Shown one piece after another: positions 41,131 through 42,876 of a stretch of 64,000 bases of DNA. The DNA lies in assembly GCA_009773495.1 (NCBI GenBank), contig WSXW01000007.1, positions 1 to 64,000 of the forward strand, written 5' to 3'. Within the stretch, counting starts at the first letter, position 1. Every line of letters starts with the position of its first letter. This DNA is from Bacillota bacterium (lineage in GTDB: Bacteria; Bacillota; UBA994). Made by a program: the position numbers and the translations under genes. The notes under the pieces are model-generated. The model was not told the origin of the DNA. It saw nothing but the letters and a program-made list of their open reading frames with translations, and made no database searches.

Positions 41131-41889
41131 CTACTTTAGCTTACCTTGAATTCCTACATTAACGTCCATGACCGGAACATACACGCCAGCGCGCTTGATA
41201 GCCTCAGCTACTATACGTCCTAAGCCAAAGCAACAAGGGACTTCCATGTGTGCAATGGTAATGCTCCGAAAGTTATTTTGGCGGATCATTTCTGCAAGCT
41301 TTTCAACATAATGCTCGGCGTTATCTAACTTAGGGCAGGCGATAACGAGTGAGCGACCCTTGAGTAACTTGCGGTGGAAGTCCGGGTATGCAAAAGGAAC
41401 GCAGTCTGCCGCAACAAGCAAGTCAGATTCTTGCAGAAAGGGAGCAGAGGTCGGAACTAACATAAGTTGCACTGGCCATTGCTGAAGCTGAGATTCACCT
41501 GCGCTTACGGTGGCATCGGCTGTCTCAGGCTTCTTGGCAAAGCTCATCATGCGGGACCCCGGGCAGCCGCCACCGTGACCATGTGTCGGCTGTGGAGAGG
41601 TTTTTTGCTCAGCTTGGCCATGGCTAACTGGAATAGGTGTCCGACCAATGCTCTTAAGCCACACATTAGTGGCTTCTTCATTAAACTCCTCAGAATCACG
41701 TTCTTCGATAGTAAGGGCACCAGTGGGACACTCACCTAGACACGCTCCCAGACCGTCACAGTATTGTTCCTTAACAAGCTTAGCTTTACCGTCTATTATC
41801 TGTAAGGCTCCTTCAGCACAACCAGGAACACATGCACCGCAGCCATTGCAGAGTTCCTCATCTATTTTTATAATCTTACGTATTGCCAT
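41131..41889 (-). CDS. Ferredoxin-like protein of the FrdX type
   Basis: A protein of 252 residues. The N-terminus has a complete 4Fe-4S motif CNGCGACVPGC (C14, C17, C20, C24). The second motif CDGLGACLGEC lacks the second cysteine (leucine at 47). It is followed by a Gly/His segment with GGGCPGSRM and a C-terminal domain with ADCVPFAYPDFH and PCCFGLG. Proteins of this build are common in anaerobes and are often in HcpR/Fnr-type regulons with hybrid-cluster protein. AGGAGG lies 8 bases before the ATG, and a Crp/Fnr-type site controls it. No hcp gene is adjacent here. Confidence 0.82.
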   Translation of the reverse strand: MAIRKIIKIDEELCNGCGACVPGCAEGALQIIDGKAKLVKEQYCDGLGACLGECPTGALTIEERDSEEFNEEATNVWLKSIGRTPIPVSHGQAEQKTSPQPTHGHGGGCPGSRMMSFAKKPETADATVSAGESQLQQWPVQLMLVPTSAPFLQESDLLVAADCVPFAYPDFHRKLLKGRSLVIACPKLDNAEHYVEKLAEMIRQNNFRSITIAHMEVPCCFGLGRIVAEAIKRAGVYVPVMDVNVGIQGKLK

Positions 41890-41924
41890 CTTAAAAACCT
41901 CCTAAAAATATTTATCCTGTTTAA

Positions 41925-41968
41925 AGTTTAACTTAAGATAGCTGCGAGTATTGTGACCGAGGTCACAG
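41925..41968 (-). promoter_or_regulatory. Crp/Fnr-type operator at -41.5 of the ferredoxin gene
   Basis: TTGTGACCGAGGTCACAG (41951-41968) contains a perfect TGTGA-N6-TCACA palindrome. On the minus strand TAAACT (41925-41930) is a -10 candidate. It places the start near 41918 and the palindrome centre at -41.5, the exact position of a class II activator site. The sequence fits HcpR or Fnr-like regulators. Confidence 0.75.
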
Positions 41969-42006
41969 TTACGATATTTATCATGGCTCCTAGTTCCTTG
42001 TGGGAC

Positions 42007-42043
42007 GTACACGGAACACAGTACACAGTGGCCCAGAAGGCTA
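42007..42043. repeat. Tandem 7-bp repeats with AGAAGGCTA flank
   Basis: Units GTACACG, GAACACA and GTACACA, then GTGG, are followed by AGAAGGCTA. The array in pyrD (50051) has the same unit and the same GTGG...AGAAGGCTA flank, so the two are copies of one dispersed element. Confidence 0.75.
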
Positions 42044-42108
42044 AGCCAAGGGCTTTATTCATCTGAGGCGTGTTGGAGAGTCTTCTGCATCGAGAGCGTA
42101 CAGTTAAA

Positions 42109-42876
42109 TTAGCTAAAACACAATTCTGGCCCGACATGCCACTTACCTATGTGTCCAGCATGCTCGGCTGCTAATTCAAAGTGGAGCATAGCAATACCTA
42201 GGTCCATATATGTGAACCCTCCTTGCCTAGATGGCTTAAGGACAACTCTTGCAGGCGTACCACTTAGAAACCACGGTTGCCGATGTATAGCAGAAGGAGC
42301 TACCCGTACGGCATCCGCTGCAGAACGGACCCATCCCGCACTCTGCAGAAGGTCCTTATCAACTATTTGCTCTAGAGTTTTGCGCTTTACAAAAAAGTGG
42401 ACTAGACTTCCCATTGGGTCTGTCTTGCTTATGGGCCAACCCACTGAAATAATAGCTGCCACCTTCTCGGCTGGCCCTATCGATAGACGGCCCATCAGGG
42501 TTTTAAAGTGAAACATACCGCCCACCCAACATGTGGCCAAACCCAAAGAGGTGGCGCGCAAAACATATTGCTCCCCGACATAGCCTGCCTCAAGCAACCC
42601 TAGTTCTCCACTGTCCTCAGGAACCAATAAAGCAATGAGCGCACTAGGCCCCTTTATTTTACCGTAGTTACCGATTATCCCTGAGAATACGTCATCAAGT
42701 TCTCCGGGCGCATGCGCCAACTCTACTCGGCATCCAGTTAAGTCTAAACGCCTAATGCCCTCAGAAACCATAAGTCGATTACGCAAGTCATTGGGAATCT
42801 CTTTGGCTGTGTACTGTCGCACCGAGTAACGCCTGGGAATAGCTTCTACCAAATCCCTAATATACATATTGTTCAA
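42109..42876 (-). CDS. Nitroreductase-fold protein
   Basis: A protein of 255 residues with the flavin-dependent nitroreductase fold: IPRRYSVRQYTAKEIP near the start (FMN contact RYSVRQY), GYVGEQYVLRATSLGLATCWVGGMF in the middle and the C-terminal second half-domain (YMDLGIAMLHFELAAEH), as in TM1586-like double-length members. A TTG start has GAGGTG 7 bases upstream. The substrate is unknown. It lies upstream of the ferredoxin-like gene on the same strand, but a 219-bp gap with its own promoter separates them. Confidence 0.85.
   Translation of the reverse strand: MNNMYIRDLVEAIPRRYSVRQYTAKEIPNDLRNRLMVSEGIRRLDLTGCRVELAHAPGELDDVFSGIIGNYGKIKGPSALIALLVPEDSGELGLLEAGYVGEQYVLRATSLGLATCWVGGMFHFKTLMGRLSIGPAEKVAAIISVGWPISKTDPMGSLVHFFVKRKTLEQIVDKDLLQSAGWVRSAADAVRVAPSAIHRQPWFLSGTPARVVLKPSRQGGFTYMDLGIAMLHFELAAEHAGHIGKWHVGPELCFS

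Follow-up and report, generated by a model that had tools for sequence, protein, structure and literature searches.

A frdX-type gene and its promoter

The window analyzed here, a stretch of 64,000 nucleotides from a Bacillota genome assembly of 2.52 Mb in 76 contigs (97.8% complete), carries a gene on the minus strand (positions 41131 to 41889) encoding a ferredoxin of 252 amino acids with an N-terminal 2x[4Fe-4S] domain and a C-terminal domain that contains five further invariant cysteines. An earlier note on this DNA, made from the sequence alone, had proposed that the gene is of the frdX type, and homology bears this out, as the protein is 43 to 48% identical over nearly its full length to the products of frdX genes adjoining both hcp and a Crp/Fnr (HcpR-type) gene in other genomes (G033, G040, G043, G047, and G103). 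The five C-terminal cysteines (C109, C163, C185, C219, and C220) are invariant in an alignment of 47 homologs from many phyla and may form a further metal site. Sequence matches in the PDB covered only the N-terminal ferredoxin part, and a fold search with a model of FrdX returned no match at an E value of 0.001 or better. The next gene upstream on the same strand (42109 to 42876) encodes a TM1586-type nitroreductase, which also adjoins frdX in six of seven other genomes of the same family.

The frdX start codon, ATG, lies at 41889 to 41887 and is preceded on the minus strand by a ribosome-binding site, AGGAGG (41898 to 41903, read directly), and a -10 box, TAAACT (41925 to 41930). Further upstream is a Crp-type operator, TGTGACCGAGGTCACA (41952 to 41967; assigned to neither strand), which matches TGTGA-N6-TCACA without a mismatch, in agreement with the perfect palindrome claimed in the earlier note. 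The operator is centered at 41959.5, 29.5 bases from the first base of TAAACT. With this -10 box and a class II geometry, transcription is predicted to start at 41918 on the minus strand, which puts the operator center at -41.5, the distance originally proposed. A scan of positions 41850 to 42150 on the minus strand for a sigma-70-like consensus pair found none, and the operator takes the place of the -35 box, as in class II CRP-dependent promoters. Because the operator stands between the nitroreductase gene and frdX, the nitroreductase gene cannot clearly be assigned to the regulon.

This operator is the only perfect copy among the 21 matches in the window with up to two mismatches, a number that shows no enrichment over the 22.5 expected; by a simple base-4 estimate, 64 kb should contain the perfect 10-base motif about 0.06 times. 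Across the genome there were four perfect copies of TGTGA-N6-TCACA, compared to one for the reversed control. Since matches with two mismatches are not enriched and the genome-wide excess is only four to one, the motif alone is weak evidence, and the case for a function before frdX rests on conservation.

An unlinked hcp gene with the same promoter layout

The only hcp gene found in the genome is on another contig, C47, in line with the earlier observation that none adjoins frdX. It encodes a short-form (434-amino-acid) member of the Prismane family that scores above the cutoff of the hydroxylamine reductase model TIGR01703. Upstream of this gene is a perfect TGTGA-N6-TCACA site with a -10 box, TATAGT, at 29.5 bases, the spacing seen before frdX. 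The four perfect sites in the genome thus comprise those before frdX and hcp and two that lie inside open reading frames. The earlier note had suggested a split regulon and that hcp be sought elsewhere with the same site upstream, and the unlinked hcp gene supports that suggestion because its site is perfect and its -10 spacing identical. frdX (contig C39), hcp (C47), and the candidate regulator described below (C44) are all unlinked and do not form an hcpR/hcp/frdX cluster, and the common operator before hcp and frdX gives the genome the target pair of an HcpR regulon. From sequence comparison, an unlinked two-gene regulon of hcp and frdX with a single promoter design is well supported.

Conservation of the operator and its spacing

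The upstream regions of orthologous genes were compared by taking one locus per genome and scoring the best-matching site within 250 bases upstream; the genomes compared are related, so the counts that follow are not independent. Among the 30 closest frdX orthologs, a set that includes the source genome, 27 had a site with at most one mismatch (no mismatch in 16, one in 11, two in 1, and four in 2), compared to 0.23 loci in shuffled sequences and 1 of 30 with the reversed pattern. Sites of the same quality preceded hcp at 27 of 30 loci (no mismatch in 14, one in 13, two in 2, and one miss, as which L092 of G001 was scored), where shuffling gave 0.26 and the reversed pattern 0 of 30. Of the crp genes, 1 of 29 had such a site in its own upstream region (30 loci, one of them without upstream sequence). 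At 44 of the 57 loci having sites with up to two mismatches, a -10-like hexamer was found at exactly 29.5 bases, while any other offset was mostly seen at 1 to 6 loci and never at more than 13. The palindrome might be taken for a chance occurrence without function, since the genome contains four perfect copies, of which two fall within open reading frames, and matches with two mismatches are not enriched; the conservation before both genes and the fixed spacing make this extremely improbable, and on these comparisons the palindrome before frdX is a real, conserved switch.

The same geometry bears on the direction of control. In Desulfovibrio, the HcpR sites at sat and apsAB lie across -10 boxes, and repression is predicted for them (PMC545781; this and the other published systems are cited from excerpts of the papers), and the site before frdX could likewise be a repressor operator. 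It stands, however, at the -35 position with the fixed class II spacing, leaves the -10 box free, and replaces a -35 element for which there is no match, so that we give repression little credence.

A minority of promoters (L045, L054, L057, L061, L063, L085, and L087) have a perfect site 51.5 to 52.5 bases before the best -10-like box. At L045, the perfect site is accompanied by a weaker one 22 bases downstream, an arrangement that suggests tandem sites.

Less similar orthologs weaken this picture, as sites with at most one mismatch preceded only 6 of 24 further full-length frdX genes and 9 of 20 further hcp genes of the short type (54 to 74% identity; four of the 20 are additional copies from genomes that had already contributed one); the hcp counts cover the short type, with long-type hcp of lower identity and G059 outside them. 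In a separate set of 80 named frdX loci, eight had such a site (0.8 expected from shuffling and none with the reversed pattern), of which at least five (L125, L126, L130, L141, and L151) overlap the 30-genome set and three (L154, L163, and L175) are additional; L154, from the cultivated Thermotalea metallivorans, has its site in the corresponding position with one mismatch. Seven of the eight are labeled as Bacillota groups; the eighth, L125, carries the label NPL-UPA2, and its upstream sequence is that of G003, a genome of the same family as the source. Four loci with Bacillota-type labels (L129, L147, L190, and L197) had two to four mismatches before frdX.

A candidate Crp-type regulator

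Two proteins of the source genome contain a Crp/Fnr sensor domain and are referred to here by their contigs as C44 and C39. A search of the genome with HTH_Crp_2 gave six matches, three of them over the cutoff (C44, C39, and C35); the C35 protein (L009) had the helix-turn-helix match only, without a cNMP-domain match, looks GntR-like, and was dropped. The C44 protein (C44:15169-15834) has the recognition helix ARETVSR, with R180 and E181. Escherichia coli CRP has an R-E-T..R recognition helix, and its operator and class II position are the same as those found here. Its cAMP contacts, R82 and S83, are replaced in C44, where the corresponding stretch reads YPATA; similar stretches occur in many R-E-T relatives. 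C44 also has a single cysteine (C143) and lacks the cysteine set with which FNR holds a [4Fe-4S] cluster. Given the single cysteine and the YPATA stretch, neither an FNR-like cluster nor cAMP binding is expected for this protein. Rodionov et al. (2005) linked R180 with position G3 of the site and E181 with position A6 (PMC1274295), and by this rule C44, which has both residues, fits TGTGA and C39 does not. The earlier reading depended on the genome encoding a Crp/Fnr-family protein with a matching recognition helix, and C44 is such a protein.

The gene for the other protein, C39 (C39:64106-64783; L015 2107-2784), lies about 100 bases past the end of the window and encodes an FNR-like protein with an N-terminal CPCEHIC motif. 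It is followed by an FNR-like TTGATatatATCAT site (L015 2911-2924; 0.18 expected) that precedes the neighboring genes for a thioredoxin-like protein and a P-type ATPase. C39 lies on the same contig as frdX, 22 kb away, and might be the reader of the frdX site. It has F at position 180 (TFENFSR), groups in the tree described below with proteins that have N-terminal cysteines and lack R180, has the TTGATatatATCAT site before its own neighbors, and shows no positional link to hcp or frdX; we regard it as very unlikely to read the site, and on the grounds of its helix and its own FNR-like site it was set aside. CooA was also rejected as the reader, as its TGTCGGCnnGCCGACA consensus (PMC545781) does not fit.

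A census of 34 genomes connects the operator to the R-E-[TS] type of Crp protein, which was found in 26 of 28 site-bearing genomes (G014, with two mismatches, counted as site bearing) versus one of six comparison genomes (Fisher p 4e-4; helices read by hand, leaving aside long matches of about 640 to 684 amino acids, G092:C33, G092:C146, G103:C1:330758, and a 431-amino-acid G047:C10 protein, which has no R-E-T helix by pattern). The one comparison genome is G103, which has an R-E-T Crp and yet an HcpR2-type site before frdX. The two site-bearing genomes in which the type is missing from the proteins read, G007 and G088, are incomplete assemblies (96 and 95%). G007 encodes an AREVVSR protein; such AREVV-type proteins (G002, G005, G007, and G043) also have the R and E but form a separate group in the tree. 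Four genomes (G050, G065, G108, and G128) encode a single Crp/Fnr protein each (E at most 1e-6), in every case of the R-E-T type, and their frdX sites have zero, one, one, and one mismatches, respectively; G065 and G108 have no perfect site anywhere in the genome. Among the matches listed, an R-E-T crp gene adjoins hcp in two genomes (G060 and G098) and frdX in one (G128).

A quick tree was built from 96 proteins, leaving out rows shorter than 190 amino acids (including a G006 fragment) and three further rows. Its R-E-T group comprised 27 rows with an SH-aLRT value of 85, which is moderate, and many inner branches were weak. The HcpR1-type group (11 rows; 96) and the HcpR2-type group (14 rows; 99), labels that were assigned here by position and helix, were both separate from the R-E-T group. 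Neither Crp/Fnr protein of the 97.8% complete assembly falls into the HcpR1- or HcpR2-type groups. The proposal that the site is HcpR-like was right with respect to the target pair and the operator; the HcpR label for the reader is not supported by descent in these sequence comparisons.

A true HcpR could have been missed in the gaps of the assembly and read the sites as in Desulfovibrio, whose HcpR shares both the consensus and the pair of targets (PMC545781). We consider this very unlikely, as neither protein found is of either HcpR type, the four relatives with a single, R-E-T Crp/Fnr protein still carry the site, the HcpR-type proteins examined depart from R180 (S, P, or Q) or from E181 (P, S, or T), and none of the 80 named frdX loci outside the Bacillota (with L125 counted as Bacillota) has a site with at most one mismatch. 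The site is most likely read by a Crp-type protein rather than a classical HcpR.

From the computed sites, their geometry and conservation, and the co-occurrence of the Crp type, we infer binding, activation, and which protein binds. In the proposed mechanism, C44 would occupy the palindrome, through its ARETVSR helix, where a -35 box would otherwise stand and would activate frdX by bringing RNA polymerase to TAAACT. It would act in the same way on the short, stand-alone hcp of contig C47, whose promoter has the same layout, and the ferredoxin and the hybrid cluster protein would thus be induced together though their genes are unlinked. Class II activation of both genes by C44, a Crp-type regulator without cAMP contacts or FNR-like cysteines, is probable on this sequence evidence.

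Two frdX architectures and two operator types

Among 54 frdX upstream regions, 33 contained a TGTGA site with at most one mismatch, and none of these 33 genes was seen with hcp adjoining (within a flank of up to 1.5 kb or among the matches listed), versus at least 10 of the remaining 21 that adjoin hcp among the matches listed (Fisher p 1.5e-5; the counts were compiled by hand from related genomes, so the test is indicative only). The GTAACN4GTTAC pattern was present with at most one mismatch in 7 of the 54 (L064, L253, L259, L320, L322, L323, and L333), and no promoter among the 54 carried both site types at that threshold. G033, whose single Crp/Fnr protein is of the HcpR2 type (RPSLSR), has a perfect GTAACN4GTTAC before frdX. 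The frdX promoter at L323 (G130) carries GTGACATATGTTAC, which is halfway between the two operator types. TGTGAC-N4-GTCACA and TGTAAC-N4-GTTACA are one symmetric base pair apart, and for an exchange of HcpR for Crp, little might therefore be needed beyond that substitution and a corresponding one at position 181 of the helix.

Comparison with known systems

The Desulfovibrio HcpR regulon (Rodionov et al. 2004, 2005; PMC545781 and PMC1274295) has the same targets, hcp and frdX, the same operator (wTGTGAN6TCACAw; TTGTGAN6TCACAA is the consensus given before hcp-frdX in PMC545781), and predicted positive control. In Desulfovibrio, however, hcp and frdX are co-expressed and adjoin hcpR, whereas the present genome has them apart, yielded no HcpR-type protein, and has a likely reader from another group of Crp proteins. 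In Desulfovibrio desulfuricans 27774, HcpR1 (Ddes_0528) binds TGTGAN6TCACA, has an R-E-R helix, and is encoded away from hcp and frdX, as is the candidate regulator here; unlike here, hcp is controlled by another protein, HcpR2 (PMC5701242). The HcpR2 of Clostridia (PMC1274295) and the hcpR of Clostridioides difficile (PMC12915319) again have hcp and frdX as targets, and both genes are strongly induced by NO in C. difficile in an hcpR-dependent manner (PMC12915319). These systems differ from the present one in their operator (GTAACN4GTTAC, with a variant of its own in C. difficile), their RPSLSR-like helix, and their clustered genes. Porphyromonas gingivalis HcpR is described as binding heme (PMC12750200).

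One precedent is crp2 of Thermoanaerobacter tengcongensis, where a CRP-like site precedes hcp and the regulator is called an ortholog of Bacillus subtilis fnr, not HcpR (PMC1274295). That description concerns one genome, and frdX goes unmentioned in the excerpt; here, hcp and frdX are both involved, with the -41.5 geometry and in many Bacillota. The literature searched held no further report of Crp2 with hcp in Thermoanaerobacter beyond PMC1274295. Nothing in that literature described how widely the system extends among the Bacillota, its fixed geometry, or its pairing with a distinct Crp clade, though a prediction present only in RegPrecise may exist. Novelty is limited because the crp2/hcp precedent and the HcpR/frdX regulon are already in print.

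Wider targets and implications

A genome-wide search for TTGTGAN6TCACAA with up to two mismatches gave 93 matches versus 111 for the reversed control, from which no wider regulon can be read. Among the matches listed, six places had one mismatch without the perfect core (L020, L021, L023, L024, L025, and L029), of which only L024 is promoter-like, lying 122 bases ahead of a PALP-family gene; the L025 place (1041 to 1058) is inside an open reading frame (761 to 1828). In related genomes, perfect promoter-like sites (L301, L303, L302, L304, L309, L315, and L311) precede a DctQ-type TRAP transporter gene in G004 and G007, a gene for a solute-binding protein, read as tungstate type, in G004 and G006 (97% identical DNA and hence one case), an ATP-synthase gene-1-type gene in G050 and G126, and a lysine-2,3-aminomutase-type gene in G128. 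Other perfect sites in relatives lie inside open reading frames (L294 and L307) or beside a small, unassigned one (L310). The promoter-like sites hint at a broader, energy-related regulon and weaken the assumption that NO is the signal.

These results turn a guess about a single site into a regulon of two genes that can be tested and for which a candidate regulator is named. The TGTGA, GTAAC, and TTGAC operators on related promoters constitute a natural series for studying the exchange of regulators. For the many Bacillota that have a stand-alone frdX and a short hcp without an adjoining HcpR gene, both genes would be assigned to a Crp-type protein. It is possible, and we propose it tentatively, that many anaerobic Bacillota have rewired the NO defense pair hcp and frdX from HcpR to a cAMP-independent Crp clade, which may also watch over energy metabolism.
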